DNA of 64,000 bases from contig NZ_JAAEDH010000002.1 in the NCBI RefSeq assembly GCF_018128965.1, positions 1 through 64,000 on the forward strand, written 5' to 3'. A program made the position numbers and the translations under genes. The stretch comes from Plastoroseomonas arctica. GTDB lineage: Bacteria > Pseudomonadota > Alphaproteobacteria > Acetobacterales > Acetobacteraceae. Of this stretch, positions 3,998-64,000 are shown one piece after another (position 1 is the first letter of the stretch; the number at the start of each line of letters is the position of its first letter). The notes under the pieces are model-generated. The model was not told the DNA's origin. It did no database searches and was given only the letters and a program-made list of their open reading frames with translations.

Positions 3998-5340
3998 CGC
4001 CGTTCGTGGGACAGCGGGTCGCGGTGATGGGTCTGGGCAAGGCCGGCTTCGACGCGGCCAGGCGCCTGCGCGACTGGGGCGCGGATGTGACCGCCTGGGA
4101 TGACTGCGCGGATGCACGCGATCGCGCGGCCGCCGAGGGCCTCACGCTGCGCGATCCGGCCGAGGGGCTGGACGCGGATGCGCTGCTGCTCTCGCCCGGC
4201 ATTCCGCACACACACCCCGTGCCGCATGCGGCCGCGCAGGCCGCGCGAGCCGCTGGCGTTCCCATCCTCTGCGACGTGGAATTCCTGTTCCGCGCGGTCC
4301 GGGCCAGCGGCTCCGAGGCGCGCTTCGTGGGCGTCACCGGCACCAATGGGAAGAGCACCGTGACGGCGCTGATCCACCACATCCTGACCACCGCGGGCCG
4401 GGTGTCCGAGGTTGGCGGCAATCTCGGGCCGCCGGCGCTCGGACTCAACATGTTGTGGCACGAGGGCATCTATACCCTCGAAATGTCGTCCTACATGTTG
4501 GAGCGACTCGCGCGGATGCGCTTCAACACAGGGGTAATGCTGAACCTTTCCCCCGATCATCTCGACCGCCATGGGAGCATGGCCGGCTATGTCGCTGCGA
4601 AGGCGAATATCTTCGCGCGCCAGGTCGCCGGCGACACCGCGGTGGTCGGGATGGATGACGAGGCCAGCGCCGCGATGGCGCAGGGCCGGGCGGGTTTCGT
4701 GCGCCGAATTTCGGCGACCACGCGCCAGCCAGGCGGCGTCTGGTGCGACGATGGCGTGCTGCGCGATGAGGAGGGCGCGTTCTGCGACCTGCGCGAGGCG
4801 CGCGCCTTGCCCGGCGCGCACAATGCGCAGAACGCCGCCGCCGCCGCCGCCGCCTGCCTGGCACTCGACGTGCCGCGCGCGGCCATCGCGGCGGGGGTGC
4901 TCAGCTACCCCGGCCTGCCTCACCGGCTCGAGCGCGTGGCCGAGTTCGGCGGCGTCGCCTGGATCAACGACAGCAAGGCCACGAATGCCGACAGCGCCGC
5001 GCGCGCCCTGGCCAGTTATGACCGCGTCGCCTGGATCGTGGGGGGCATCGCGAAGGATGGCGGCATCGAGAGCCTCGCGCCGTGGCTTGGCCGCGTCGCG
5101 AAGGCCTATCTGATCGGGCGCGACGCGCCGCTCCTCGCCGCGACGCTGGCGCGCCACGGCGTGCCGCACGCGGTGGTCGGCGACCTCGCCAGCGCCATTG
5201 CCGCCGCCCATGCCGAGGCTGCCGCGCCGGTGGTGCTGCTCTCGCCGGCCTGCGCCAGCTGGGACCAGTTCCCGGGCTTCGACGCGCGCGGCGATGCGTT
5301 CCGCGCCCAGGTCCTCGCACTCGCCGGGGGGGCGCGCTGA
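3994..5340 (+). CDS. murD: UDP-MurNAc-L-Ala:D-Glu ligase
   Basis: MurD is the cytoplasmic ligase that adds D-glutamate to UDP-MurNAc-L-alanine. It has 448 residues. An N-terminal Rossmann-like glycine motif ([15 protein letters not shown]) is followed by the P-loop TGTNGKST near residue 115, and by the C-terminal segment [16 protein letters not shown] that is typical of MurD. The start is GTG at 3994, overlapping the mraY stop as GTGA; no in-frame ATG lies close by that would keep the nucleotide-binding N-terminus. The next gene, ftsW, begins at the last base of its stop codon. Confidence 0.94.
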
Positions 5341-42068: not shown

Positions 42069-42111
42069 CTGGCGCGCGGGCAACGTCGATTATTTGAGTT
42101 CCGGAGGCATT

Positions 42112-45100: not shown

Positions 45101-45297
45101 AGACTGGGATAGAAGGTATGGCGCGCCCAATTCATCGAGGCTTTGGCACTGAGTTGATCGAACGGGCGAGCGGCTTCACGCGCGATACCGAAGCTCACCT
45201 CGATTTCGGCGAGTCAGGAATCGACTGCCGTATCCGGATGGCCTTGCCGGCCACGGCGGAGCCGCGCGAGATGATGGACGCGGCGGCGCGGCCATGA
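42112..45297 (+). CDS. CheB-CheR-PAS-HWE histidine kinase fusion protein
   Basis: This 1061-residue cytoplasmic protein joins several signalling domains. A CheB methylesterase domain (about 12-195) has the triad-like Ser24 in GASAGG, His51 in THLN and Asp142 in GDGDGT. A CheR methyltransferase (about 220-480) has CheR-N and the SAM motif GCATGEE near 324. A coiled coil at about 660-740 with EELQSVNEELQTVNAEL leads to a PAS domain, then an HWE kinase with His near 865 (LQHRTRNLLAIVQ), N-box His near 956 and WRE near 995. The CheB receiver domain is missing. GTG 42112 follows GGAGG; an upstream TTG at 42094 has no such site. Confidence 0.86.
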   Translation: MPGEASLLDAAQTNLFPIVGVGASAGGIEALEGFLRGMPERPGVAIVVVTHLNRERESLLPEILGRFTAMPVLRAEHSVEVRPDHVYVMVSNTILEIKDRHLRVEVEGAGRNHKPVDVFLSALAMDLGELSAGVILSGGDGDGTLGIKAIKERGGLTMAQVSDGHGPQHPSMPESAIATGLVDFAIPVEEMGRKLKEFSADTSGNGTTSPAAVADEPVEQRIPTIYSILRNQIGHDFSGYKTKTFLRRVRRRMHVGRLPSIDAYVERLQQEPVEVAALFRDLLINVTSFFRDAEAFRSLAELVIPKLFENRGADDSVRVWVPGCATGEEVFSIAILLREHMDTLAAAPRVQIFATDIDERSLMVARAARFPEALLDGVSEARRKRFFIPDGGSYVIAKEVRELCIFSPHNIIRDPPFSRIDLISCRNLLIYFGPQVQNQVIPTFHYALHPGGRLFLGSAENVSQYDDLFIAIDKRHRIFRRRSDRSTSLRLPMLMTAMRHGGATDAIIRRPQSTKLALRDAVDVQLLERFMPAHVVVNRDGDVLNFSGHTGKYLEAPPGAPTRNVLIMARKSLRLDLRAVFTEAVESGRSITRDGIAVENDDGQIQVISLIVEPLNQSRMPSENFEPLYLVLFFDRGPPLSREEALGRANAADDGAAAQMERELRDTRDRLQSLIEEYETAMEDLKSANEELVSVNEEMQSTNEELEASQEELQSVNEELQTVNAELHDKVDKLDRANADLRNLFDITDVATVFLDRKLVIRSFTPAVGKVFNILPTDRGRPITDLAINLRLANLERDIDEVFSGRGAVETRAERDDQRANFLIRIAPYRGEDQQIDGVVVTFIDITTLTRAEARQRVLIAELQHRTRNLLAIVQSIARRTLGNGGSLPDFTARLEALGRVQNLVSGETENVIELRDVILMALNAVAPGFEGKVRLTGPAVTLEFQQMQTFALALHELSSNAVKHGALRPGSGEVTITWELEGVDNRDQFLTFHWRETGIEGMARPIHRGFGTELIERASGFTRDTEAHLDFGESGIDCRIRMALPATAEPREMMDAAARP

Positions 45298-49714: not shown

Positions 49715-50475
49715 TGCAGACCCTCCGGGCCCTTCATGTCGCGGATGCCGGCCTCAGGCAGGATGCCCAGGCGGCGCGCCACTTCCTGATAGCCTTCCTC
49801 GACCTTGCCGAGGTCGCGGCGGAAGCGGTCCTTGTCCATCTTCTCGCCGGTCTTGGTGTCCCAAAGGCGGCAATTGTCGGGGCTGATCTCGTCGGCGAGG
49901 ACGATGCGCATGTCGTCATTCTCGAACAGCCGGCCGAACTCGATCTTGAAGTCGACCAGCGTGATGCCGACGCCCAAGAACAGCCCGGTGAGGAAGTCGT
50001 TCACCCGCAGCGCGAGTGCGACGATGTCGTCGAGGTCCTGGGTTGCGGCCCAGCCGAAGCAGGTGATGTGCTCCTCGCACACCATCGGATTGTTGAGCGC
50101 GCTGTTCTTGTAATAATACTCGACGATCGAGCGCGGCAGCCGCGTCCCCTCCTGGATGCCCAGGCGCGTGGCCAGCGATCCGGCCGCGACATTGCGCACC
50201 ACGATCTCGAGCGGGATGATCTCGACCTCGCGGATCAGCTGCTCGCGCATGTTCAGGCGACGAATGAAATGGGTGGGCACGCCGATCTCGGCCAGGCGCA
50301 TCATCAGGTATTCGCTGATGCGGTTGTTGAGCACGCCCTTGCCAGTGATGGTGCCCTTCTTCTGCGCGTTGAAGGCGGATGCGTCATCCTTGAAGTACTG
50401 AACCAGGGTGCCGGGCTCGGGACCCTCGAACAGGATCTTGGCCTTGCCCTCAAAAAGCTGTCGGCGGCGCGCCAT
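49711..50475 (-). CDS. purC: SAICAR synthetase
   Basis: PurC joins CAIR and aspartate with ATP in purine synthesis. The 254-residue protein starts with [16 protein letters not shown], the family N-terminus, and has [16 protein letters not shown] and the substrate segments [20 protein letters not shown] and [10 protein letters not shown], with [14 protein letters not shown] following. I start at MARRRQLF; an earlier in-frame ATG at 50523 would add 16 residues not seen in the family. It is the first gene of the purC-purS-x-purQ cluster. Confidence 0.95.
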
Positions 50476-50592
50476 GCGTGGTGAATCCTTCGTGGCCGCC
50501 GGGCAGAGGGCGCCGGGCAGCAATTTGCGGGGGTATAGCAGCGGGGGATGCCCCGCGCCACAGGCCCCGCCGCAGGGCCGTCCCGCGTGATT

Positions 50593-51555
50593 TCAGCTCC
50601 CCCGGATATTGGCCGTCGCGATCACCTGGCCCCAGACCGCCCGGTCCCGCTGGATTTCCGCGCGATAGGCCGCCTCCGTCCCGTTCACCGGCAGCCAGAG
50701 CAGGCGCTCCATCCGTTCGCGGATCGCCGGCGTGTCCATCAGCCGGTTGATCTCCGCGTTCCAGAACGCGACCCAAGGCGCCGGCACGCCGGCCCCGGTC
50801 ACCAGCCCGTAGGCCACGTCGCCGGTGAAGCCGGAGACCGTCTCGGAGACCAGGCCCACCTGCGGCAGCACCGGGCTGCGCTCGGCGGAGGCGAAGGCGA
50901 TGGCGCGCATCCGGCCGTCCTGGATGAAGGGCAGCGATTCCGGCAGCAGCGAGAAATACAGGTCCGCATGGCCGGACAGGATATCCAGCAGCGCCGGCGT
51001 GCCGCCGCGATACTGTATGTGCTCCATCGCGAGCCCAGACTCATGCAGCAACCGCGCCGCCAGCAGATGCGTCTGCGACCCCGGGCCGGAATTGCCGATA
51101 TTCATGACGCCGGGGCGGGCGCGGGCATGGGCGATCAGTTCCGGCAAGGTCGCGTAGGGCGCATCCGAGCGCGCCACCAGCACCATCGGAACACGGATCA
51201 GGTTCACCACCGGGGTCAGCGCGCGGTCCGGATCGATCGGCATGACGAAGCCCGGCAGCACGGGCGCGGTGGCGAGCACGGTGCCCGGCGCAATCATCAG
51301 GGTATGCCCGTCGGGTGGGGCCTGCGCGGTCGCCTGCATGGCGATGAAGGTGCCGCCGCCGCTGCGGTTCTCCACCACGATGCTGCGCCCGCCGAGGCGC
51401 GGCGCAAGGGTCTCCGCCAGCAGCCGCGCCAGGATGTCCACCGTGCCGCCCGGGGCGAAGGGCACGATCAACCGCACATCGCGTGCGATCGTCTGGGCAA
51501 AGGCTGGGGCGCTCGACAGCCCGAGTGTGACAAGCAGGATGGCGAGGATGCGCAT
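50593..51555 (-). CDS. Bug-family tripartite tricarboxylate transporter binding protein
   Basis: This 320-residue periplasmic protein begins with a signal peptide (MRILAILLVTLGLSSAPAFA). RLIVPFAPGGTVDILARLLAE and the segment VVENRSGGGTFIAMQA are the ligand-loop hallmarks of the Bug family, which binds carboxylates such as citrate, glutamate or aromatic acids. VMNIGNSGPGSQTHLLA and HIQYRGGTPALLDILSG complete the pattern. No TctA or TctB membrane subunit lies nearby, which is usual for the many orphan Bug genes. The start is chosen at the signal peptide. Confidence 0.88.
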   Translation of the reverse strand: MRILAILLVTLGLSSAPAFAQTIARDVRLIVPFAPGGTVDILARLLAETLAPRLGGRSIVVENRSGGGTFIAMQATAQAPPDGHTLMIAPGTVLATAPVLPGFVMPIDPDRALTPVVNLIRVPMVLVARSDAPYATLPELIAHARARPGVMNIGNSGPGSQTHLLAARLLHESGLAMEHIQYRGGTPALLDILSGHADLYFSLLPESLPFIQDGRMRAIAFASAERSPVLPQVGLVSETVSGFTGDVAYGLVTGAGVPAPWVAFWNAEINRLMDTPAIRERMERLLWLPVNGTEAAYRAEIQRDRAVWGQVIATANIRGS

Positions 51556-51763
51556 GCGCGGTCTCCGGCAGGACGCCCGGCGCGATGCGCCCCTCCCCCT
51601 CGCGCGCCGCAACCAGGCTTTTGATGGAACAGCCCAGCGTAAGGCGTTGCGCGACCTTCACGGAACGGCGCTGACGTCCCACGCCGCGGAAATCAGTGCC
51701 GGCGGGACCGGCGCCTGCCGCCACGCAGGGCAGGCCGCCTGCGCGGGAGGCGACGAGGGCGCG

Positions 51764-52468
51764 CTACAGCGAGACCGCGGCGAACGGCGCCTGCGACCCC
51801 GGCGCGAACTGCCACGCCCGCTCGTCCCCTGCCCCAAGCCCGATCAGCGAGGCGGAGACCGTGCCGAACCCTCCCGACGCCGGCACGTTCAGCGCCTCGG
51901 CGCGATCGCCCCCGCTGTCGCGCAGCAGCGCAGGCCAGGTGCCCCAGTCGGGCGGGCTCGGAGCGGCGGCCGCCTCGAAGCGCGGCAGATGCCGGCGCAC
52001 GCGCGGGCTGGCGGCGTGATTGGGGTCCATCGACGTCACCATCGTCACCCCTTCGGCCAAGGCGACGGCCGCGACCGGGCCCGCCCCCTCGCCGCGCAGA
52101 AACCAGGCGGTGTCTCGATCCGCCACGACTAGGTTGAAACTGCGCCATTCGCCGGAATCGAGGCCGCCGATGGCGGCGGCCGCCGCCGCGGCACTCGCGG
52201 CCCCGGCCGCCATCAGCGGCAATTCCCCGCGTGACCGCTTGCCCGGGGCCGGCCCGAGGCTGCCGGGACGGTTCAGCACGCCAGCCACGACGCCATGGCG
52301 GGACAGCGCGAGCCAGGTGCCGCCGCCGGTCGCGTCACGCCCGCCGGTGATGCCGGGCCAGAATTCCGCCGGCGCCTCCCAGGCGCGGTCCAGCCGCTCG
52401 TCGCGATTGGCGGCGAGCAGCAGCGGCCAGCCGTGGCCGGGCCGGCGCAGCAGGATCAGGGTGCACAT
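51764..52468 (-). CDS. NRDE-family (TANGO2-like) protein
   Basis: This 234-residue protein starts with MCTLILLRRPGHGWPLLLAANRDE; the Cys2 start and the NRDE tetrad define the family (PF05742-type, TANGO2 in eukaryotes). DATGGGTWLALSRHGVVAGVLNR follows. The family fold is Ntn-hydrolase-like, and roles in heme or lipid handling have been proposed for the eukaryotic members; the bacterial function is unclear. It lies nine bases after the glmS stop on the same strand. The C-terminal half is Ala-rich and less conserved. Confidence 0.85.
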   Translation of the reverse strand: MCTLILLRRPGHGWPLLLAANRDERLDRAWEAPAEFWPGITGGRDATGGGTWLALSRHGVVAGVLNRPGSLGPAPGKRSRGELPLMAAGAASAAAAAAAIGGLDSGEWRSFNLVVADRDTAWFLRGEGAGPVAAVALAEGVTMVTSMDPNHAASPRVRRHLPRFEAAAAPSPPDWGTWPALLRDSGGDRAEALNVPASGGFGTVSASLIGLGAGDERAWQFAPGSQAPFAAVSL

Positions 52469-52477
52469 CGGGCAGGC

Positions 52478-54301
<1,824 letters not shown>

Positions 54302-54315
54302 GGGAGAGCCTCCAG

Positions 54316-54366
54316 AAGAAAGGCTGGGGAGAAGAATGTCCCCAGACGTCGTTCTTTTATTTTTGC
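54316..54366 (-). repeat. Dispersed palindromic element, copy 4
   Basis: The palindrome CTGGGGAGAAGAATGTCCCC (plus AG) lies at 54324-54345, flanked by AAGAAAGG on one side and by CGTTCTTTTATTTTTGCGAC on the other. The tail contains the glmU stop codon (54357-54359), so the element overlaps the end of a coding region. It fills the glmU-glmS gap on the minus strand. Confidence 0.7.
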
Positions 54367-55658
54367 GACTTGGTGCCGCGGCCAGGTTTCACGGATTGCC
54401 GGGAACGGGCGATGGCGAGAGAGTTCGCGGGCACGTCGTCCGTGATGGTGCTGCCGGCGGCGACCAAGGCCTGGGCGCCAACGACCACCGGGGCGACCAG
54501 CGCCGAATTGCTGCCGATGAACGCGCCCTCGCCGATATCGGTGCGATGCTTCGCCACGCCATCGTAATTGCACGTGATGGTGCCGGCGCCGATGTTGGCG
54601 CCCGCGCCTATCGAGGCATCGCCGAGATAACTCAGGTGGTTCGCCTTCGCACCCTCGCCGAGCGTCGTCGCCTTCAGCTCCACGAAATTGCCCACATGCG
54701 CGCGCGCCTCGATCACCGTGCCCGGGCGCAGGCGCGCATAGGGGCCGATGATGCAGTCACGGCCGATCCGCGCACCCTCCAGATGCGAGAAGGCGCGGAT
54801 CTCCGAACCTTCGCCGACGCTGACACCCGGTCCGAACACCACATGCGGGCCAACCGTGACGTCCGCCGCCAGGCGCGTGTCGGACGCGAAGAACACGGTT
54901 TCCGGCGCCTGCAGCGTGGCGCCCGCCGCCATCGCCGCCGCCCGCAGGCGCGCCTGCATCGCCGCCTCGGCCTCGGCGAGCTCTGCGCGGGTGTTGATGC
55001 CGCGCAGTTCCGCCTCCGGCGCCTCGACCGCCACGGCCGAACGGCCCTCGGCCACGGCGAGGCCGACGACATCGGTCAGGTAGTATTCGCCCTTGGCATT
55101 GTCATTGCGGACGGCGCCGAGCCAACGCAGCAGGTCCGGGGCGGCGGCGCAGATCACGCCGGCATTGCACAGCGCCTCGTCCCGCTCCGCCGGCGAGGCG
55201 TCCGCGTATTCCACAATCCGCTGGACGCGCCCGGCCGCGTCGGCGATGACGCGCCCATAGCGCCCCGGGTCGGCCGGCCGCATCGCCAGCAGCGCCAGAT
55301 CGGCATCCGTGCGTGCTGCCAGCAGCCGCTCGATCGTCGCACGCGTGATCAGCGGATTGTCCGCGTAGAGCACCGCGGCATCGCCGGAAAAATCCTCCAG
55401 CAGCGGCGCCGCCTGCGCCGCGGCGTGGCCGGTGCCGAGACGGTCCTGCTGCACCACCACGGCATGCGGGGCGGCGATTGCCGACAGGCTCTCCATCCCC
55501 GGCCCCACGACGACGATGATCCGGTCGAACAGGCCCGCGCAGGCATCGATCAGATGGCCGAGCATGGGCCGCCCCGCGATGGCATGCAGCGCCTTGGGTT
55601 GGCGCGAGACCATGCGGGTGCCCAGGCCGGCGGCGAGGATGATGGCAGCGCGCATCAT
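54357..55658 (-). CDS. glmU: Bifunctional UDP-GlcNAc pyrophosphorylase / GlcN-1-P acetyltransferase
   Basis: GlmU acetylates glucosamine-1-phosphate and then couples it to UTP, giving UDP-GlcNAc for wall and LPS. The 433-residue protein has the nucleotidyltransferase start RAAIILAAGLGTRM, then PKALHAIAGRPMLGHLID. The C-terminal left-handed beta-helix has hexapeptide repeats with NFVELKATTLGEGAKANHLS, SIGAGANIGAGTITCNYDG and GAFIGSNSALVAPV, the acetyltransferase site. Two adjacent ATG codons exist; the first is used here. The last residues, including the stop codon, fall in the dispersed element. Confidence 0.95.
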   Translation of the reverse strand: MMRAAIILAAGLGTRMVSRQPKALHAIAGRPMLGHLIDACAGLFDRIIVVVGPGMESLSAIAAPHAVVVQQDRLGTGHAAAQAAPLLEDFSGDAAVLYADNPLITRATIERLLAARTDADLALLAMRPADPGRYGRVIADAAGRVQRIVEYADASPAERDEALCNAGVICAAAPDLLRWLGAVRNDNAKGEYYLTDVVGLAVAEGRSAVAVEAPEAELRGINTRAELAEAEAAMQARLRAAAMAAGATLQAPETVFFASDTRLAADVTVGPHVVFGPGVSVGEGSEIRAFSHLEGARIGRDCIIGPYARLRPGTVIEARAHVGNFVELKATTLGEGAKANHLSYLGDASIGAGANIGAGTITCNYDGVAKHRTDIGEGAFIGSNSALVAPVVVGAQALVAAGSTITDDVPANSLAIARSRQSVKPGRGTKSQK

Positions 55659-55746
55659 CGGGGCGTAGCCCGTTGGCCCGCGCCGGAGCAAGCGGCGTGA
55701 CGGTCACATCGCATTGCCAGGCGTTGCGGCGCTCCGGCCTGCGGCG

Positions 55747-56064
55747 TCAGCCCCGGTCCCAGGCCAGCGACATCGTGTAGGTCGCCCATGGCGTCGGCAC
55801 CGAGGCGCGCCAACGCTTGCGGCGCCGTTGCGCGTCGGGGGCACCGAATGCCTGCTGGATTGCGAAGAGCTGGCGCGCGGAGAAACTCGCCGCCACCTCC
55901 ACTGGCATTCCGGCGAGGAACGCGGCGACGAAGGCCGGGTCCGGGTAGTGTGCAAGCGGCGGCGGCGCGTCCTCGTCGAGCGTACGGAGTGAGACCGAAT
56001 GCGCCTGGCTCTCGGCGACCATGCTACAATATTTTGACATGTTGAAGGCTTTGAGGGCCGACAT
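55747..56064 (-). CDS. Conserved-looking small protein between glmU and gph
   Basis: I do not know its function. The 105-residue product has an acidic middle (SLRTLDEDAPPPLAHYPDPAF) and a helix FVAAFLAGMPVEVAASFSARQLFAIQQAFG. It ends in an Arg-rich segment, then VPTPWATYTMSLAWDRG. I recall similar small alphaproteobacterial proteins that end in a basic stretch and a hydrophobic beta hairpin. The start at 56064 is uncertain, as a second ATG eight codons later is also possible. It diverges from gph by 36 bases and lies 88 bases before the start of glmU on the same strand. Confidence 0.55.
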   Translation of the reverse strand: MSALKAFNMSKYCSMVAESQAHSVSLRTLDEDAPPPLAHYPDPAFVAAFLAGMPVEVAASFSARQLFAIQQAFGAPDAQRRRKRWRASVPTPWATYTMSLAWDRG

Positions 56065-56100
56065 GGTGTCCGCAAGGCTGGTCGAGGACACTTGAAGCAC

Positions 56101-56763
56101 ATGACATCGCCGATGATCCTGCTCGACCTGGACGGCACCTTGGTGGACAGCGTGCCCGATCTTGCCCGGGCGCTGAACCAACTCATGGCCGCGCATGGCC
56201 AGGAGGGGTTTGCGCATGCGACCGTCGCCGGCTTCGTGGGCGATGGCGTCGCCGCCCTGATCGAGCGCGGCTTCGCGGCCCGCGGCCTTGCGGTGCCGCC
56301 TGGCGCCGTGGGTGAATTCCTCAATGACTACGCACCGCGCGCCGCCGAGCTCACGCGACCCTTCCCAGGAGTGCGGGAGATGCTGGCGGCGCTGCGCGCG
56401 GATGGCTGGCGGCTGGCGGTCTGCACCAACAAACCCGAGGCGCCGGCGCGCGCCATGCTCGACACCCTCGGGCTGATGCCGCTGCTTGATGGCATAGGCG
56501 GCGGCGACAGCTTCCCCATGCGCAAGCCCGATCCGGGTCATCTGCTGGCGACGCTCGTCATGGCCGGGGGCGACGCCGCGCGCGCGATCATGCTCGGTGA
56601 CCACGCCAATGATGTGGTCGCCGCCGCCGGCGCCGGGTTGCCGGCGATCTTCGCGGGCTGGGGCTACGGTCCCCCGTCGATGGCGGGCGACGCCCCAGTC
56701 GCGCCGGAACCGGCAGCAGTCCCGCCGCTTGTCGCGACGCTGCGGCTCAGGGCGGGTTGGTGA
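56101..56763 (+). CDS. gph: Phosphoglycolate phosphatase (HAD family)
   Basis: Gph dephosphorylates 2-phosphoglycolate, which arises from DNA repair and photorespiration-like side reactions. The 220-residue HAD phosphatase has DLDGTLVDS at residues 11-19 with the nucleophile Asp, TNKP (motif II region), RKPDPGHLL with the motif III Lys, and GDHANDVVAAAGAG as motif IV, where the usual Ser is His. I start at ATG 56101; an in-frame TTG lies three codons earlier. Its 3' end overlaps the DUF3108 gene tail to tail by 17 bases. Confidence 0.88.
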   Translation: MTSPMILLDLDGTLVDSVPDLARALNQLMAAHGQEGFAHATVAGFVGDGVAALIERGFAARGLAVPPGAVGEFLNDYAPRAAELTRPFPGVREMLAALRADGWRLAVCTNKPEAPARAMLDTLGLMPLLDGIGGGDSFPMRKPDPGHLLATLVMAGGDAARAIMLGDHANDVVAAAGAGLPAIFAGWGYGPPSMAGDAPVAPEPAAVPPLVATLRLRAGW

Positions 56764-57511
56764 CGCGCACCAAGTCGACGCGGACCGTGCCGAACATCCG
56801 GGTCTCCATGTCGACGCGGAGCGGGATGGGCGGCAGATGCGGGCTGACAAGCCCCAGCCAGACGGTGCCCGGGATCACCCGGCCCGTGGTTTCGCGCGAT
56901 TCATCGCTGCGGAAGCCGGCGATGAGCTGCGTGGTGATGGCGCAGCGCAGCGCCGGCGCGCGGTAGGCGCCGCCAACGGCCACGAGTTCCTGGCGGCCCT
57001 CGGTACGCGCCGTCCATTCCTGCAAGCGCCGGCCGTCGAAGGTCATCGTCCGGCCGTCGCAGCGGTCGCCGAGACCGGCGAGCCGCGCCATCCAGATCAG
57101 GGCGGAGAGGGTGTCCATCGCGCCGGTGAGGCGGGCCGGAGGCACCGCCTCGCGTTCCGGCTCCATCACCGGCAGCAGGCTCCGCAGCACCGGCCTGCTG
57201 CCCTCGAAGTCGAGGTGGGTGCGGCGCTGCTCGCCCCGCCAGACGCCATCCGCGCGATAGCGCAGCGGAACGGCCTCGGCGCCGCGCCATTGTCCTTCGC
57301 TGATGGTCGTCTGGCCGCCGCGGACGAACAGCGCGGCGGCACCGGTGGTCTGCGAATGCGCCTCCACCCGATAGCCACGATCGGAGACGTCGAGCCGGGC
57401 GGTGATCTCCAACACGTTCATGCCCAGGGCGGTGAGGGTATAGGTCACGTCGACCGGCGCGCCGCGCGCCGGGACCGCGAAAAGAAGCAGGAGGATGAAG
57501 AGACTGCGCAT
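56747..57511 (-). CDS. Exported DUF3108-like protein
   Basis: The 254-residue protein has an N-terminal signal peptide (MRSLFILLLLFAVPARGAP) and a mature part of beta strands typical of the DUF3108 family: DVTYTLTALGMNVLEITARLD, then GYRVEAHSQTTGAAALFV, and later GRRLQEWTARTEGRQEL and PLRVDMETRMFGTVRVDLV. Such proteins are periplasmic and of unknown function; their fold suggests a lipocalin-like or beta-sandwich ligand binder. It diverges from the tRNA-Val gene, whose promoter lies within its upstream region. Confidence 0.75.
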   Translation of the reverse strand: MRSLFILLLLFAVPARGAPVDVTYTLTALGMNVLEITARLDVSDRGYRVEAHSQTTGAAALFVRGGQTTISEGQWRGAEAVPLRYRADGVWRGEQRRTHLDFEGSRPVLRSLLPVMEPEREAVPPARLTGAMDTLSALIWMARLAGLGDRCDGRTMTFDGRRLQEWTARTEGRQELVAVGGAYRAPALRCAITTQLIAGFRSDESRETTGRVIPGTVWLGLVSPHLPPIPLRVDMETRMFGTVRVDLVRVTNPP

Positions 57512-57558
57512 GAATGGTTATGTGGTCGAGGCCAGCCGATCGGCCAGCCCTGATCTGC

Positions 57559-57587
57559 TTGACACTCCCGGGAGCGCGCCGTATCCG
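57559..57587 (+). promoter_or_regulatory. Promoter of tRNA-Val
   Basis: TTGACA (57559-57564) and TATCCG (57582-57587) are spaced by exactly 17 bases, with the tRNA starting 26 bases further on. The -35 matches the sigma-70 consensus and the -10 matches at three of six positions. This is one of the best promoter-like pairs in the window. Confidence 0.7.
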
Positions 57588-57613
57588 AGGCGCCCCGGCG
57601 ACCGTGTCGCTGC

Positions 57614-57688
57614 GGGTGCGTAGCTCAGCGGTAGAGCATTGCCTTCACACGGCAAGGGTCACAGGTTCAATCCCTGTCGCACCCACCA
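57614..57688 (+). tRNA. tRNA-Val (anticodon CAC)
   Basis: The 75-base gene folds as a standard tRNA. The acceptor stem is GGGTGCG/CGCACCC, the D arm is GCTC-AGCGGTA-GAGC, the anticodon arm is TTGCC-TTCACAC-GGCAA with anticodon CAC, and the T arm is ACAGG-TTCAATC-CCTGT. The 3' CCA is encoded (57686-57688). It reads GTG codons, common in this GC-rich genome. It stands alone and is followed within 24 bases by the end of a restriction-modification gene on the opposite strand. Confidence 0.97.
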
Positions 57689-57711
57689 GTTGCGCCCGAA
57701 GGGCTTGGCCG

Positions 57712-60705
57712 TCATGGCGGCAGCAGCGCGTCCACCAGGGCTTCCATCTCCGCCGCGATCCCGTCGGCGATGAGCGCCGCGCGGATGGCCCGGCGCTTGG
57801 CGGTGAAATGGCGGTGCCCCTCCAGCGGGACCTGTGCTGCGACCTGCTCGGCGCGCTCCGCGGCTGCGGCCAGATCGCGGTGCAGGGTGTCGGATTCATC
57901 GAATTCGGGGATGGGCAGCGTCCAGACGAGGTTGTCGAAGTCGCGCTTGTCCCGCTGGCCGTGCGGCTGGAGGTCCGTGATTTTCGCCAGCACCGCCGCG
58001 CTGTTCAGCAGCGTCGTGAGATACCTTGCCTCACCGACCGAGCGGGCCGCCGCCCAATACGCCTTGTGGTCGATCACAGCGTTTTTCTCCGCGAGGATGA
58101 CCGCGCTGAGCCTGGTGCCCGCCTTGGTGCAGAGGACGCGCATGGATGCCGGTTCCGTCTGCACGGCGAGCAGCCTCTGATGATTGATCCGCTCCCGCAG
58201 CGTCATGCGCGGCCCACCATCCGTCGCTTTGTTGCTATTCGCCGCCCACTTCGCCTCGGCATCCGATAGCCACGCCGCCAGATTGACGTGCCCAGCCTCC
58301 CGCGCCGCCGCCGCGTCCAGTACGCGCCCATCTTCCATCGGAATCACCGTCGTCACCGTCTCCAGCATCCGGAACGGCGCCACGCTTTCCCCCAGCGCCA
58401 CCTGCCGCAGGAACGCCACCTCCACCGGCCCGCGCGGCGGCTCCACCAACGTCCAAGGGGCCTTGTCCAAGGCCCCAACCCGGCCCCGCACCCGCGGTGC
58501 ATCCCGCCGCCCGCCGAGCCGCCCCACCGCCTCCATCTCCACCAGGAAGAACCGCCGCGGCACCAGCGTCGCCCCCTGCCGGAACCGCGCCCGATAGGGC
58601 GAGACCCCTTCCAGCGTCCGCGCCCGCGGCCAGGCGACGCGCGCATGCGCCAGCACCGCCGCCGCCTCCGCCTCGCCCGCATCACGGCGCGGCAGATGCC
58701 CCACCCAGCGATCCATCTGCGCCGGCGCCCCGCCCGCCGCGTCCCGCTCGCCGAACAGCACGCAGGTGCTGGTCGTGCTGCTGCCCGACTGCGCCCCGAA
58801 AATCGGCCAGACCCGTTCCAGCGCCCAGCCCCCCGTCACCCGCACCTGCACGCTGCGCATCAGCCCCGCCCGCAGCCCGGCAAACACCTTCGCGTTCAGC
58901 ACCGCATAGGGCAGCACGAAGCCGATGCGCCCGCCCGGTTTCAGATACCGCTCCGCCCCGCGCGCCCAGAACAGCGCGAACATGTCCTGCTGCGTGGCCA
59001 GGTTGCCCCCCACCCACAGCCCATATTCGCCAAGCCCCTCCCGCACCCGGTCCTTCATCGCCGGGCTCAGGTGCCGGTAGACGATCCAGGGCGGGTTCCC
59101 CACCAGCACATCCGCCCGCTGCTCCGGCCGCGACAGCCACACCGGCCGCACGAGGTTGCGAAACACAAACGTCCAGATGCCGTTGCGCCCGGCGCGATAC
59201 AGCCCCTGCAAGCGCGCGAAGGTCTCGGCCATCGCCGCGGCATCCGCGGGCACGGCGCCGGCGATGCGCGCGAGGCGCCGCCCCACCGTCGCCGGACTCG
59301 CCTCCTCGCGCAGCCCCCGGTTCAGCACGTCCAGCCCCTGCTCGAAGGCCGCCTGGTCCTCGGCGAAACCGGCCGGGATCTGCAAGGGCGGGTCGCCCGG
59401 CACCTCCACCAGCACATCGGCGCGGTCGAGGTAGCGGCGCAGGTTCCACTGCATCGCATCGCCCAGGAACACCGGCACGGTCAGCCGCGCCGGCCGGTCC
59501 AGGATCAGCCGGCCCAGCGCCAGCAGCCAGGTCACCCGCGCGAGCGTGACCGCCACGGGATGCACATCGAGCCCGCGCACCTGGTCCGCGCAGGCTTCGA
59601 GAATCCGCGGCCCCGCCCAGCCCGCCGCCTGCCCCGCCGCGATCAGCCGGCGCAGCGCATGGAACAGGAAGGTGCCCGAGCCGCAGGCGGGATCCAGCAC
59701 ACGTTCGCTCAGCGGTGCGGCCACCGCCGCCGCCACCACCCGCCCGGCCAGCCAATCGGGCGTGTAGTATTCGCCCAGATCATGCCGCTGGTCCGGATCG
59801 ACCAGGCTCTCGTACAGCGTCTTGAGCACATCCGCCTCGACATCGCGTAGCCGGAACCGCGCCGCCTGGGCCGCGATGCGCGTGACCAGCGCGGCCCCCT
59901 CGGGCGCACGCAGCGGCCAGTCGAAGAAATCCGCCTCCACCGCGCCGGCGATGCCCTCATCGGCCAGCGCCTTGCCCGAGAGCAGCGCGGCCGGGTCATC
60001 GACCGGCAGGTCGAGCACCCGCGCCGCGATCGCCTTCACCACGGTGACCAGGTAGGTGTGCTGGAGGAACAGCGCATCCTCGCCCACCGCCTCGCCATAG
60101 GCCTCCGCCAGAAGCCGGTCCCACAGCTCCCGCTTGAGCCGCACCTCCGGGTCGTGCTGGAGCCGCGCCCACATCACGTCCAGTTCCAGCTTCGCGGCGC
60201 CGAACAGCATGCTTGTCCGCCCGAAGGCCTGCGCCACCGCGCGGGGTTCGGGCGCGAGGTCCGGCCGTTCGGACAATAGCGGCTCCAGCCAGGCCATTAG
60301 CGCCTCGGGCTGCTCGGCATCGGTCTCGAACCGCGCCAGCTCGCGCAAGCCGCCGCCTTGGGCGGTTCCATAGGCGAGGAACAACGCGCCATCGGTCGCG
60401 ATGCCGGTTGGCGGCCGGCCGCCCGGCGCGCGGGCCTGGGCGTCGGCCAGGTAGTCCGGCAGCCGCGCCAGCACGTCAGGCAATTCGCGGCGCAGGTCCG
60501 ACTTCAGCTCGATCACCGCCGCACCCCACATCGTGTCGATGCGCCCGGAGCGGTTGGTCAGGTACACCTCATGGCTGATTTCTTCGTAGGGCGCATCGAA
60601 GCCGGAGCGCAGCAATTCCGTCATCAGCCCGCGCAGCGCCTCGTGGCGCGGCCGCCCGGCCATGGCGCGCACGATCTCCGGCAGTCTTTCGCGCCGCCAC
60701 ACCAT
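57712..60705 (-). CDS. Fused PD-(D/E)XK nuclease / N6-adenine DNA methyltransferase (type IIG-like)
   Basis: The 997-residue protein resembles single-chain restriction-modification enzymes of the Eco57I kind. An N-terminal nuclease-like part has Asp57 and ELK (Glu66, Lys68) in the PD-(D/E)XK pattern. A helical region follows to about residue 300. The methyltransferase core starts with GEYYTPDWLA near 311, has the SAM motif LDPACGSGTF (337-346), and the catalytic NPPW at 537-540. The C-terminal 400 residues are probably the DNA-recognition domain. No separate modification or specificity gene lies nearby. Its GC content is like its neighbours. The start is ATG 60705; MAGRPRH at 60663 is possible. 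Confidence 0.82.
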   Translation of the reverse strand: MVWRRERLPEIVRAMAGRPRHEALRGLMTELLRSGFDAPYEEISHEVYLTNRSGRIDTMWGAAVIELKSDLRRELPDVLARLPDYLADAQARAPGGRPPTGIATDGALFLAYGTAQGGGLRELARFETDAEQPEALMAWLEPLLSERPDLAPEPRAVAQAFGRTSMLFGAAKLELDVMWARLQHDPEVRLKRELWDRLLAEAYGEAVGEDALFLQHTYLVTVVKAIAARVLDLPVDDPAALLSGKALADEGIAGAVEADFFDWPLRAPEGAALVTRIAAQAARFRLRDVEADVLKTLYESLVDPDQRHDLGEYYTPDWLAGRVVAAAVAAPLSERVLDPACGSGTFLFHALRRLIAAGQAAGWAGPRILEACADQVRGLDVHPVAVTLARVTWLLALGRLILDRPARLTVPVFLGDAMQWNLRRYLDRADVLVEVPGDPPLQIPAGFAEDQAAFEQGLDVLNRGLREEASPATVGRRLARIAGAVPADAAAMAETFARLQGLYRAGRNGIWTFVFRNLVRPVWLSRPEQRADVLVGNPPWIVYRHLSPAMKDRVREGLGEYGLWVGGNLATQQDMFALFWARGAERYLKPGGRIGFVLPYAVLNAKVFAGLRAGLMRSVQVRVTGGWALERVWPIFGAQSGSSTTSTCVLFGERDAAGGAPAQMDRWVGHLPRRDAGEAEAAAVLAHARVAWPRARTLEGVSPYRARFRQGATLVPRRFFLVEMEAVGRLGGRRDAPRVRGRVGALDKAPWTLVEPPRGPVEVAFLRQVALGESVAPFRMLETVTTVIPMEDGRVLDAAAAREAGHVNLAAWLSDAEAKWAANSNKATDGGPRMTLRERINHQRLLAVQTEPASMRVLCTKAGTRLSAVILAEKNAVIDHKAYWAAARSVGEARYLTTLLNSAAVLAKITDLQPHGQRDKRDFDNLVWTLPIPEFDESDTLHRDLAAAAERAEQVAAQVPLEGHRHFTAKRRAIRAALIADGIAAEMEALVDALLPP

Positions 60706-60747
60706 CCCCACTACCCCCGACTCGGAGCGCGATGCTACCCACCTCCC

Positions 60748-61038
60748 ATGTCCGCCGCCCAGCCTGACCTTTTCGCCGCCGCCCCGGAGCCGCCGCCCCC
60801 GGTGCCGCCCGAAGTTCTCGACATGGTTCGCGCGCGGCTGCACCGCCTCCTCGCGCTGGTGCGCGGGGCGGAGACGATGCCCTGGACCGACATGCTCCAG
60901 GCCGTGGCCGCCGACAACGCGTTCCGCTCCGGCTACACGATGCTGCCGCCCGAGGAGGGCGAGCCGCTCTGGCGCGAATTCGATGCCGAGCTGGATCGCC
61001 TCTACGCCATCGCGAATGAGGGCCAAGTGCTCGACTGA
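60748..61038 (+). CDS. Small hypothetical protein divergent from the restriction-modification gene
   Basis: I do not recognise this 96-residue soluble protein. It begins with SAAQPDLFAAAPEPPPPVPP, where a DLFAA stretch followed by a Pro-rich segment resembles a sliding-clamp binding motif, but that is only a resemblance. A helical part follows (VLDMVRARLHRLLALVRGAE) and an acidic end, LPPEEGEPLWREFDAELDRL. It diverges from the large gene, with 42 bases between the starts, so both could be controlled from the same short gap. It ends 40 bases before the stop of the EF-hand gene. Confidence 0.6.
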   Translation: MSAAQPDLFAAAPEPPPPVPPEVLDMVRARLHRLLALVRGAETMPWTDMLQAVAADNAFRSGYTMLPPEEGEPLWREFDAELDRLYAIANEGQVLD

Positions 61039-61077
61039 GCGCCTCGGCGCTGGCCTCGCGGCCAGCGCCTTGTCGCG

Positions 61078-61602
61078 TCACCGCGCCGGTGGCGCAGCCT
61101 CCGGCCCAGGGCGCGGCGCGCGCGGTCCCCGCCGCGGCTGCACCTCGTCTCGCGCCAGCGCCCCATCCCCATTGCGGTCCGCAGCGCGGAACATCGCCTC
61201 GGCGACGGGCGTCAGCTCGGCCAGGCTCACCTTGCCGTCGCCATTGGCATCGACGAAGCGGAAGCCGCGCGACAGGCCCTCGCGGATGCGGACCTGCATC
61301 TCCTCGCTCGGCGCCGGCCGGCCGGCGGCGCGGCGGGTCTGCATGAAGGCGACCAGCTCGTCGATCGTGACGCCGCCATCGCGGTCGGCATCCGCCTCGG
61401 CGAAGCGCGCCTGCAGCCAGCTGCGGCCCTCGTCGATCGTGACGCGGCCATCATTGTTGGCGTCGGCGCGGGCGAAGGCCTCGCCGGCGGCGAAGCCGCC
61501 CTCGCCGCGCGGACCGCCGTGGCGGTGCTGAGCGACGGCGGCGCCCGCGAGGCCGAGGCCGATGACGCCCGCGAGCAGGCCGATGGTGGCAGTCTTGCGC
61601 AT
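61078..61602 (-). CDS. Exported EF-hand protein with four calcium loops
   Basis: The 174-residue protein starts with a signal peptide (MRKTATIGLLAGVIGLGLAGAAVAQ) and then carries four EF-hand loops. They are DANNDGRVTIDE, DADRDGGVTIDE, DANGDGKVSLAE and DRNGDGALARDE, in two pairs. The C-terminal tail is Pro/Arg/Ala-rich. It probably binds calcium in the periplasm; a structural or signalling role is unknown. The start is set at MRKTATIG, since an AGGG lies just before it and the upstream MNNNQG start would place charged residues before the signal. It follows the M20 gene direction but is not coupled to it. Confidence 0.8.
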   Translation of the reverse strand: MRKTATIGLLAGVIGLGLAGAAVAQHRHGGPRGEGGFAAGEAFARADANNDGRVTIDEGRSWLQARFAEADADRDGGVTIDELVAFMQTRRAAGRPAPSEEMQVRIREGLSRGFRFVDANGDGKVSLAELTPVAEAMFRAADRNGDGALARDEVQPRRGPRAPRPGPEAAPPAR

Positions 61603-61698
61603 TGATCTACCCTGATTGTTGTTCATGGGCGGATCATGGACCAAGGCTGTAACAAACACATTGCGCCGGCGGTGAAAAACGGTAACGGGCGGTGCCGT

Positions 61699-63096
61699 TC
61701 AGACGCGCCCGGGGGTCCCGCCTTCGCCCAGGTCCCACCACATGCCGGCGAACCCCAGCAGCCCCTCGCGCGCCGGCGCGATCAGCAGGTGTTCGTCCGG
61801 CCCGTGCTGCTTGCATCCATTGTAGCTGTGCGGCACCCAGACCAGCGGCACGCCCAGATGGTCCACGAAGACATCGCCCGGCAGCCCGCCTGAGGAGTTG
61901 GGGATGATCTGCACGCGCTTGCCCAGGCTCTCCGCCAGGCTCGCCTGCGCCCAGCGCACCCAGGGGTGGTCCACATCGGTCCGGCTTGCCGGCATGCGGA
62001 TGAAGGAGGCCTCGACGGCGACCTCGGGGAAGCCGGCGCCGTCAAGATGGGTGCGGATGGCATCGGTGAACAGGGCGGGATCGGAATCCACCGTGTAGCG
62101 GATCTGGCAATGGGCGCGGGCATCGGGGGCGACAGCATTGACCGGGTTTTCCGGCCGGCCGGAGATCATCGACAGCACGATGAGGCTGTTCCAGCCATAG
62201 ATCTTCTCGGCCGGCGACAGGCCCGGCTCGCCCCAGCCGGGGTCGATCTTCGCCGCGTCGCCGCCACCGCCCAGCGGGCAGCCATCGAGCACGGCGCGCA
62301 CGGAATTGGGCAGCGAGGGCGGCAGGATGCCGCGCACCAGGACCTTGCCGTTGCGGTCCATCATGGAGGCCAGCGCATGGGCGAGGATGATCGCGGGGTC
62401 ACGGGTGAGCCCGCCCCAGTGGCCGGAATGAACCCCGCCCTCGCGCAGCTTCACGACCAGGTCGAAATGGAAGGTGCCGCGCGTGCCGACGGCAATGGTG
62501 GGCGTGCCGGGGTCCACGCGCGGACCGTCCGAGGCGATCAGAACATCGGCGGCGAGCAGCTCGGCATTCTGCGCGACGAAATCTTTCAGGCCTTTGGAGC
62601 CGCGCTCCTCCGCCATCTCCAGCACCAGCTTCACGTTGAAGCCGAGTTCGCCGCCGCGTTCCGCGATCACGGCTTCCAGGGCGGCGAGGTTCAGCGCGTG
62701 CTGGCCCTTGTTGTCGGCGGTGCCGCGGCCGTACCAGCGGTCGCCTTCCTCGGTGAGTGTCCAGGGGTCGAGCCCGGCGCGCCATTGCTCGGGCAGTCCG
62801 CGCACGGTGTCGCCATGGCCGTAGAGCAGCACGGTCGGCAGCGCCGGGTCCTCGATGCGCGTGGCCGTCAGGATCGGCCCGAAGCCGTCCAGCGGGTTGG
62901 CGTGGATCACGGCGGTGAAACCCAGGCGCTCGACCCAGGGCGTGATGGCGTCAGTGAGGTAGCTGTGCAGCGCGTCCTCGGCGCCGGCTTCCTGGCTGGT
63001 GGAGGGGAAGGCCACCAGATCCGTGAGCAGGGCTTTGAAGCTGCCATCGTCGAAATGGGCGGCGGCGCGGTCGAGTGCGCCCTGGCGGGTGGCCAT
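61699..63096 (-). CDS. M20-family metallopeptidase (dipeptidase type)
   Basis: The 465-residue cytoplasmic enzyme is a zinc peptidase of the M20 family. Metal-site residues appear as LLYGHGDTV near residue 92, YGRGTADNKGQ near 122, MAEERGSKG with the catalytic Glu-Glu pair near 160, SDGPR near 190, and a final His in KQHGPDEHLL. The dimerisation domain lies between about 200 and 330, with GGVHSGHWGG. Family members split dipeptides, carnosine-like or acylated amino acids; the substrate cannot be fixed from sequence. Confidence 0.9.
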   Translation of the reverse strand: MATRQGALDRAAAHFDDGSFKALLTDLVAFPSTSQEAGAEDALHSYLTDAITPWVERLGFTAVIHANPLDGFGPILTATRIEDPALPTVLLYGHGDTVRGLPEQWRAGLDPWTLTEEGDRWYGRGTADNKGQHALNLAALEAVIAERGGELGFNVKLVLEMAEERGSKGLKDFVAQNAELLAADVLIASDGPRVDPGTPTIAVGTRGTFHFDLVVKLREGGVHSGHWGGLTRDPAIILAHALASMMDRNGKVLVRGILPPSLPNSVRAVLDGCPLGGGGDAAKIDPGWGEPGLSPAEKIYGWNSLIVLSMISGRPENPVNAVAPDARAHCQIRYTVDSDPALFTDAIRTHLDGAGFPEVAVEASFIRMPASRTDVDHPWVRWAQASLAESLGKRVQIIPNSSGGLPGDVFVDHLGVPLVWVPHSYNGCKQHGPDEHLLIAPAREGLLGFAGMWWDLGEGGTPGRV

Positions 63097-63159
63097 GGGG
63101 AGGGTCCAGTGCTTGCGACGGGACGGGAGTTTGAGCGCGCCCGGGCGCGCGGTCCAGCC

Positions 63160-63624
63160 TCAACGGGTACTGGTCGGCGCCGCGATGCCGGAGGTGGTGG
63201 CGGTGGTGGTGCCGGAGCCGCCGCTGCCGGTACCGCTGTTGCCGCTGGGCCGGCCACCGAACAGCGTGGTCAGCGCCGCGACCGCCGCTAGGCCCAGCAG
63301 GGTGGGTGCGGCCTGCAGCGCGGCGCCGCCAAGACCATCCGCCTCGCCCGAAAACCCCGAAAAACTGCGCCCGAAGGAGAGCGGGCGGGGCGGCGGCACC
63401 CAACCGGGCGGGGCGGCGCCGATGCGCGCGCCGGTGGCCGCGGGGTCGGCGATGGCAACCTCGACGGCAGGCTGCGACGGCGCACGGACACCCCGGGGTG
63501 CGATCGCGACAACATCGCCGGACGGCACGACCTGCTGGCGGAGCGCCTGTGCTTGCACCGTCCAGGGCAGCAGCACGGCAAGGACGGGGGCGATGATGCG
63601 CATGGGTGAAATGAATAGCAGCAT
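63160..63624 (-). CDS. Small secreted protein with Gly/Ser/Thr-rich tail
   Basis: I do not recognise a family. The 154-residue product has a hydrophobic signal peptide (MLLFISPMRIIAPVLAVLLP to about residue 27) and a Pro/Ala-rich mature part with a possible short hydrophobic helix (LLGLAAVAALTTLFGG, about residues 114-129). The end is a low-complexity tail of Gly, Ser and Thr. I prefer the ATG at 63624 since AAAGGG precedes it. The ATG at 63603 has no such site and would give 147 residues. A perfect inverted repeat covers both starts. It follows the acyl-CoA dehydrogenase gene. Confidence 0.55.
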   Translation of the reverse strand: MLLFISPMRIIAPVLAVLLPWTVQAQALRQQVVPSGDVVAIAPRGVRAPSQPAVEVAIADPAATGARIGAAPPGWVPPPRPLSFGRSFSGFSGEADGLGGAALQAAPTLLGLAAVAALTTLFGGRPSGNSGTGSGGSGTTTATTSGIAAPTSTR

Positions 63625-63631
63625 TTCACCC
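63604..63631. promoter_or_regulatory. Perfect 10-base inverted repeat over the start of the small secreted gene
   Basis: GGGTGAAATG and CATTTCACCC enclose an eight-base loop. The repeat covers the preferred ATG at 63624 and ends just before the alternative ATG. In RNA it would hide the ribosome binding site, and in DNA it could bind a dimeric regulator. Another option is a terminator of the upstream acyl-CoA dehydrogenase message. Confidence 0.5.
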
Positions 63632-63645
63632 TTTGGTCGCAAGAG

Positions 63646-64000
63646 CTAGGTGAGCATCGCGCGCGATATGATCACCCGCATGATCTCGTTGGTGCCCTCC
63701 AGGATGCGGTGCACGCGCAGGTCCCGCACGATCTTCTCCACCCCGTAATCGGCCAGGTATCCATAGCCGCCGAGCAGCTGCAGCGCTTGGTCCGCCACCT
63801 GGTGCCCGGTATCGGTGACGAAGCGCTTGGCCATGGCGCAGAACGGCGTCGCATCCGGCGCGCCCGCATCGAGCTTCCCTGCGGCACGCCACAGCAGCGC
63901 GCGCGCGGCCTCAAGCTCCGTCCGCATGTCGGCCAGGCGGAACTGCGTGGCCTGGAAATCCGCCACCGGACGCCCGAAGGCGCGCCGCTCCTTCACGTAG
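63646..64000 (-). CDS. Acyl-CoA dehydrogenase, C-terminal part (runs off the window)
   Basis: Only the last 117 codons and the stop are in the window; the 5' part lies beyond base 64000. The visible part contains YVKERRAFGRPVADFQATQF, the start of the C-terminal helical domain of acyl-CoA dehydrogenases, and QLLGGYGYLADYGVEKIVRD and RVHRILEGTNEIMRVIIS, which include the FAD-contact GGYGY and the EGTNE catalytic/adenine region. The enzyme oxidises acyl-CoA to enoyl-CoA with FAD. The subfamily (medium-chain, isobutyryl or other) cannot be decided from this part. Confidence 0.92.
   Translation of the reverse strand, partial: YVKERRAFGRPVADFQATQFRLADMRTELEAARALLWRAAGKLDAGAPDATPFCAMAKRFVTDTGHQVADQALQLLGGYGYLADYGVEKIVRDLRVHRILEGTNEIMRVIISRAMLT

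Follow-up and report, generated by a model that had tools for sequence, protein, structure and literature searches.

Restriction-modification enzymes such as MmeI, DrdV, and BpuSI (Type IIG/IIL) combine a nuclease, an N6-adenine methyltransferase, and a recognition part on one polypeptide chain. A review considers that reliance of the MmeI family on modification of one strand would be astonishing, newly replicated host DNA and unmodified infecting DNA being indistinguishable, and offers pairs of head-to-head sites as a way out (PMC3874165). Elsewhere, T4 alpha-glucosyltransferase binds gp45, a contact to which a 2026 paper assigns only a minor part in shaping the modification pattern (PMC13216743), and Dnmt1 binds PCNA (PMC9690074). 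Here we describe a two-gene locus in the alphaproteobacterium Plastoroseomonas arctica, located in the first 64,000 nucleotides of contig NZ_JAAEDH010000002.1 (NCBI RefSeq assembly GCF_018128965.1; forward strand; the whole stretch is hereafter called the window). It consists of a gene for a Type IIG restriction-modification enzyme of 997 amino acids (57712-60705, minus strand, ATG at 60705) and a divergently transcribed gene for a protein of 96 amino acids (60748-61038, plus strand), separated by 42 bp (60706-60747). Judged by sequence comparison, the small protein is very probably a genuine functional partner of the enzyme, and its N-terminal tail carries a conserved peptide resembling the motif by which bacterial proteins dock on the DnaN sliding clamp.

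By homology, the large gene encodes a Type IIG enzyme

The large gene almost certainly encodes a Type IIG restriction-modification enzyme, and by homology it looks intact. The protein matches Pfam N6_Mtase (8e-9) and PADLOC REase_MTase_IIG (6e-73), and three groups of residues are invariant across 42 aligned enzyme homologues (window included): D57 (60535-60537), E66 (60508-60510), and K68 (60502-60504) of the nuclease core (residues 43-127; 60325-60579, minus strand); methyltransferase motif I (DPxCGSG, with D338, P339, and C341-G344), which reads DPACGSG at residues 338-344 of the window enzyme (59674-59694, minus strand); and motif IV, NPPW (residues 537-540; 59086-59097, minus strand). An AlphaFold 2 (AF2) model of the whole 997 amino acid chain (predicted local distance difference test, pLDDT, 89.7) places strands 43-48, 55-60, and 63-67, followed by a long helix 71-92, around D57, E66, and K68; from its fold, we take this core to be of the PD-(D/E)XK type. 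An earlier note, made from the DNA letters and a list of open reading frames (ORFs), had read the gene as Type IIG-like with intact methyltransferase and PD-(D/E)XK motifs, and the PADLOC match, the invariant residues, the whole-chain model, and the fold matches all agree with it.

The solved structures found by Foldseek to resemble the model are CamA, BrxX, MmeI (5hr4, E 1.6e-14), BpuSI (3s1s, 2.3e-14), and DrdV (7lo5, 1.3e-13). The last three share with the window enzyme the union of nuclease, N6-adenine methyltransferase, and recognition part in a single polypeptide, but it is just 10-13% identical to them over aligned columns. Against each of the Pfam models MmeI_N and MmeI_Mtase of the MmeI (Type IIL) family it scores 19.5 bits, below the cut-off of 27, although the fold is similar. 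For the Type_ISP_C recognition domain, the window enzyme has no match at E values up to 1. We also rejected membership in MADS (NCBIfam MAD2, 54.8 bits against a curated cut-off of 720) and in BREX (PglX models, 12.9-32.6 bits against cut-offs of 400-900). A Type IIG enzyme is by itself ordinary.

The enzyme is patchily distributed. A first survey of 100 genomes (own species, genus, family, and class) found a long enzyme match in 8 other genomes, at 42-72% identity, and a scan of a species-genome collection found 531 related loci, of which the best 80 were used; the nearest relatives among these 80, at about 73-74% identity, come from alphaproteobacterial metagenome-assembled genomes (MAGs), one of them a Phenylobacterium. 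Only 1 of the 80 loci holds an additional N6-methyltransferase of this type. At this locus (L155, in a Phenylobacterium MAG), another Type IIG-like ORF, 1062 amino acids long (942-4127), adjoins the module; the locus is also the only one of the 80 with a tRNA gene within 500 bp.

The small gene accompanies the enzyme

Because homologues of both genes adjoin each other in other genomes, the arrangement in the window goes beyond chance. A hidden Markov model (HMM) of the small protein, built on 15 homologues and iterated, identifies the partner in the window and at 30 of the 80 best-matching enzyme loci, and the small gene is divergent in 28 of the 30 and downstream in 2. Among the 8 other genomes of the first survey with a long enzyme match, 6 have the small gene beside the enzyme; of the remaining two, one (G051) stops at a contig edge and the other (G070) has no small-gene match. 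Specifically, i) in an enzyme tree of 79 rows (L170 and L194, in which the enzyme lies in two frames, were left out), the partner is present in 26 of the 27 members of the clade containing the window enzyme, the exception (L178) starting at base 3 of its contig, and is found outside this clade in three rows (L205 with L211; L220), suggesting two further origins; ii) the clustering of partner-bearing rows in the tree was equalled by none of 500 shuffles; iii) the pairwise distances of enzyme and small protein, compared over the 23 loci shared by the two alignments, correlate with r=0.80, a value reached by none of 5000 permutations; and iv) the gap between the divergent starts, 42 bp in the window, is 47-140 bp in the homologues of this distance comparison. 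The earlier note had proposed that the small divergent gene might be an accessory factor, a suggestion that gains considerably from the co-occurrence, the tree clustering, and the correlated distances.

Nor, as far as the sequences tell, is the partner bound to a single enzyme family. Small homologues stand beside enzymes whose best PADLOC model is PDLC03631 (L120, L121, L239, L240, L242, L244, L263), PDLC03610/31 (L123), or PDLC03629 (L122), where the small gene is often not divergent but downstream, overlapping the enzyme gene or within tens of bases of it. Three tested enzymes of these other partner-bearing types have the Type_ISP_C domain (for example 1.5e-47 and 4.3e-52), a likeness to Type ISP which extends to annotation: on the Qipengyuania citrea plasmid NZ_CP098495.1 (L266), a small homologue, listed as a hypothetical protein, is encoded divergently from an enzyme that bears the annotation 'type ISP restriction/modification enzyme'. 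The tail of this homologue reads QLGFGF, resembling the six-residue form of the clamp consensus discussed below.

We drew 385 alphaproteobacterial genomes for a profile search, in which at least 11 small homologues were found in 9 genomes, a lower bound since few candidates were scored per genome. Seven of the 11 adjoin an enzyme of this kind (in one case split between two frames), 2 have the end of a contig no more than 600 bp away (G288, G378:C21), and 2 have no enzyme nearby (G189 and G374, one genus). The same genomes contain 22 matches to PDLC03631, with the small gene at 5 of the 22 loci. The two enzyme-free homologues of one genus (L235, L236) keep QLDLF or QLELF in the tail; the gene following the second is one which we take to be a diaminopimelate decarboxylase.

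A short-branched sub-clade of the enzyme tree joins Mesorhizobium, Bosea, Aurantimonas, Sphingopyxis, and a Beijerinckiaceae MAG, and the module thus appears to cross from one order to another. We found no match to the window small protein in plasmid or phage collections; for the L237 homologue and the L220 homologue alike, the single plasmid record matched is the one from Qipengyuania, while the L168 homologue had no match in the plasmid collection and the L220 homologue none in the phage collection. Decaying or split modules were also seen (L109, L111, L115, L118): the enzyme has stops in one genome (G042) and lies in two frames in another (G045), and in two more (G016:C2 and G019) the small gene, whole or as a fragment, stands beside a mere fragment of the enzyme end.

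The small protein is predicted to be a three-helix bundle with an extended tail

An AF2 model of the small protein (pLDDT 91.0) has three helices (residues 21-40, 49-65, and 68-93) forming a predicted bundle (residues 21-93; 60808-61026, plus strand) behind an extended tail, residues 1-20, which lies outside the helices and contains the conserved peptide. For the small protein and the relatives tried, Pfam, NCBIfam, and PHROGs gave weak matches at chance level only, and PADLOC, searched with the window protein, gave none. The best match in a fold search had an E value of 1.1, and a second fold search returned generic helical bundles at Z up to 7.6, an absence of relatives that is uninformative. 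As far as the libraries and searches used show, the partner family is undescribed. By title and abstract, we found nothing in the open-access library searched on the pairing of a restriction enzyme with a clamp-motif partner, nor any work there joining restriction-modification, the sliding clamp, and the clamp-binding motif.

The tail carries a conserved clamp-like motif

The pentapeptide Q5-P6-D7-L8-F9 in the tail (60760-60774, plus strand) is a candidate clamp-binding motif by homologue alignment and by the published consensus. That consensus has been given for bacteria as QL[S/D]LF, with QLNLF in UmuC and QLGLF in Pol II (PMC3716654), and in revised form as Q-phi-x-[L/M]-[F/L], where position 2 is L, I, V, or A and Pol III has QADMF (PMC13254535); a transposase of the alphaproteobacterium Acidiphilium has been shown to bind the clamp via such a motif (PMC4549789). 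In the P. arctica genome itself, DnaE has QIGLF at residue 923. The window motif QPDLF agrees with the clamp consensus at positions 1, 3, 4, and 5 but has P at position 2.

We counted the motif within the first 48 residues of 49 small-protein representatives sharing less than 80% identity, using as background 709 other genes from the same loci, called with a rough gene caller based on GC content at third codon positions (GC3). QxxLF or QxxMF is present in 44 of the 49 and in none of the 709 background genes, and QxDLF in 35 of the 49. The five tails in which the motif was not counted include L242, which when correctly framed reads QGSLF; the other four are taken up below. Column by column, Q is found in 43 of 48 tails, D in 42, L in 45, and F in all 48, and most of the neighboring columns are variable; across the small homologues position 3 is D, S, G, N, or E, and position 4 is L or M. 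A codon tally, covering 47 of 49 genes in a partly redundant list, gave GAC 20 and GAT 20 for aspartate, CAG 31 and CAA 16 for glutamine, and five leucine codons together with ATG at position 4. The codons thus vary freely while the residues stay, and selection therefore appears to act on the peptide. Taken as sequence evidence, the conserved motif suggests that the small protein probably binds the DnaN sliding clamp.

Several homologues have two xDLF-like copies of the motif in the tail (L172, L175, L176, L182, L220, L239-L241, L243). A candidate clamp motif within the enzyme was rejected: QQDMF at about residues 573-577 lies in a conserved methyltransferase stretch, and its F is not kept in relatives. 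Similar pentamers are scattered in other enzymes at no conserved position and were not counted as motifs; QTNLF at residue 18 of a 1067 amino acid ORF elsewhere in the window (42094-45294, plus strand) is probably a coincidence.

The neighboring tRNA gene is apparently not an attachment site

A tRNA-Val(CAC) gene (57614-57688, plus strand; ARAGORN; Rfam 71 bits) neighbors the module, its 3′ end facing the 3′ end of the large gene. The layout described in the earlier note, a fused nuclease-methyltransferase beside tRNA-Val with a gene for a 96-residue protein diverging from its start, is as we find it, and the tRNA is indeed close, although the distance from the stop is 23 bases and not the 24 given there. 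Also as the note had it, base composition is like that of the region: GC 0.718 and GC3 0.890 for the large gene and GC 0.715 and GC3 0.887 for the small gene, against a window GC of 0.700.

Since tRNA 3′ ends are favored integration sites, the note had raised the possibility of integration here and had suggested comparison with relatives. A block comprising glmU, a phosphatase-like gene, a DUF3108-like gene, and tRNA-Val appears to be common to relatives, the gene names being our own reading of the sequences. We compared 20 relative regions around marker genes, 12 of which have tRNA-Val(CAC) near the DUF3108-like gene; the restriction enzyme is absent from that site in all 12, and 8 of these regions also take in the M20 peptidase from the opposite flank. 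Neither of two other genus members searched has a full-length enzyme. The DNA 3′ of tRNA-Val is nearly empty in some relatives (G019, G023, G005), holds unrelated genes in others (G002, G007, G026, G018), and in one (G001) amounts to 1.1 kb with what is apparently a transposase remnant; on the opposite side of tRNA-Val, this last relative also carries an insert of 2.9 kb containing a large ORF. The spot behind tRNA-Val(CAC) is variable in this family (window 57689-61080; L125-L133, L137, L138, L142).

Insertion of the module at tRNA-Val by a site-specific integrase would account for homology to relatives stopping at the tRNA 3′ end, and for the differing content behind the tRNA, but a sharp edge is expected anyway where a conserved tRNA meets variable DNA, and the inserts at the relatives' sites are unrelated genes. 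We recognized no integrase by eye among the ORFs listed for 50000-64000 and found no copy of the tRNA 3′ end in the 57 kb before it or the 60 kb after it (the window plus 60 kb from contig position 60000), in line with the note's own failure to see an integrase or direct repeat; the sole near match, at 33218, has 2 mismatches in 16 bases. The downstream duplicate for which the note had proposed a search was thus not found, and a tRNA gene lies within 500 bp of just one of the 80 enzyme-homologue loci. Insertion by an integrase therefore seems to us exceedingly improbable; the tRNA is not supported as an integration target and is apparently an incidental neighbor.

Discussion

We tentatively propose, with a confidence that stops a little short of an even bet, that the two genes form a module which has spread horizontally and in which a Type IIG enzyme is accompanied by a dedicated small accessory protein that docks on the clamp on the enzyme's behalf. 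The three-helix bundle would hold the enzyme while the N-terminal QxDLF pentapeptide docks on DnaN, so that the enzyme's methyltransferase would act on DNA immediately in the wake of the replication fork. Host sites that have just been copied would thereby be protected; with a lone enzyme marking one strand, they would otherwise be exposed to its nuclease. If the enzyme does mark one strand, then in the absence of a companion methyltransferase (79 of the 80 loci) one daughter per site would be unmarked after each round of replication. Such fork-coupled methylation is a possible purpose of the small protein, though one against which we would still bet slightly. Similarly speculative is a general form of the idea, replication-coupled restriction-modification, in which small adaptors, recruited several times, would tether lone single-chain enzymes to DnaN and allow a cell's own new DNA to be told from that of an invader.

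Several observations weigh against this proposal. The partner is undetected in 50 of the 80 enzyme loci, so that it is not required by this enzyme type, and the two small homologues without a nearby restriction enzyme (G189, G374) indicate that the protein is capable of a function apart from the enzyme. Among the small homologues examined, none was fused to an enzyme, and the family-model and fold searches connected the small protein with no DNA-binding or replication protein already known. As for the motif, the P at position 2 of the window peptide is outside the revised clamp consensus, which is matched by only 22 of the 49 representatives; two members (L205, L211) have no clean pentamer, one reads EPADLF, and one QPDFF.

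The low agreement with the revised consensus, together with the tight co-evolution of the two proteins (r=0.80), would also be expected if the small protein served the enzyme alone, as a subunit or a regulator, with QxDLF docking on the enzyme or another host protein and not on DnaN. We consider this unlikely: the motif is kept beside different PADLOC families and in enzyme-free homologues, where such a docking surface would differ or be missing, and the variation tolerated at positions 3 and 4 matches that of known clamp binders. Clamp binding could, on the other hand, serve a quite different end. The Caulobacter toxin SocB blocks replication via the usual clamp-binding motif (PMC9690074), and a small protein from the same bacterial class might likewise bind the clamp and block replication when restriction fails or a phage replicates, combining restriction with growth arrest; the two motif copies of several homologues (for example L172, L175, L176, L220) would fit such a protein. 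An unneutralized toxin would not, however, be expected to persist without the enzyme in two congeneric species (G189, G374) or to remain intact beside an enzyme fragment, as in the remnant L115, and no antitoxin-like neighbor was identified; a SocB-like block thus appears improbable.

The divergent genes and their short shared intergenic region would suit a transcriptional controller (C protein) holding the enzyme back once the module has entered a new host, the other role that the earlier note had offered for the small gene. We found no Pfam or NCBIfam helix-turn-helix family in the small protein or in seven relatives, the nearest approach being a weak PHROGs helix-turn-helix match (E 0.11) in one relative, and in other enzyme families the small gene is downstream of the enzyme, so that a divergent operator cannot be shared. 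The controller role is accordingly very doubtful.

If the proposed docking of the small protein on the clamp is correct, a clamp-docking partner would be a second, directly testable answer to the problem of one-strand marking by MmeI-type enzymes. It would link restriction to the replisome and provide a first function for a family of small proteins not represented among the models of Pfam, NCBIfam, PHROGs, and PADLOC (the last searched with the window protein). With its conserved clamp-like motif, the family lends itself to an experiment that is both specific and inexpensive.

Comparison with known systems

In the passages of the literature that we consulted, no small clamp-motif partner is mentioned for MmeI, DrdV, or BpuSI, unlike the window enzyme. 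SocB, which we compared by description only, is like the small protein in being alphaproteobacterial; it binds the clamp via the usual motif and belongs to a toxin-antitoxin pair (PMC9690074). The same short Q-x-x-[L/M]-F motif is used by DNA polymerases, RecB, and transposases to bind the clamp (PMC3716654, PMC13254535, PMC4549789); here, unlike in these known clamp binders, it is found in a small separate protein genetically linked to a restriction enzyme. T4 alpha-glucosyltransferase with gp45 and Dnmt1 with PCNA resemble the proposed module in that freshly copied DNA is modified via contact with the clamp (PMC13216743, PMC9690074), but in both of these the contact is on the modifying enzyme itself, whereas in the module described here a separate protein would carry it.

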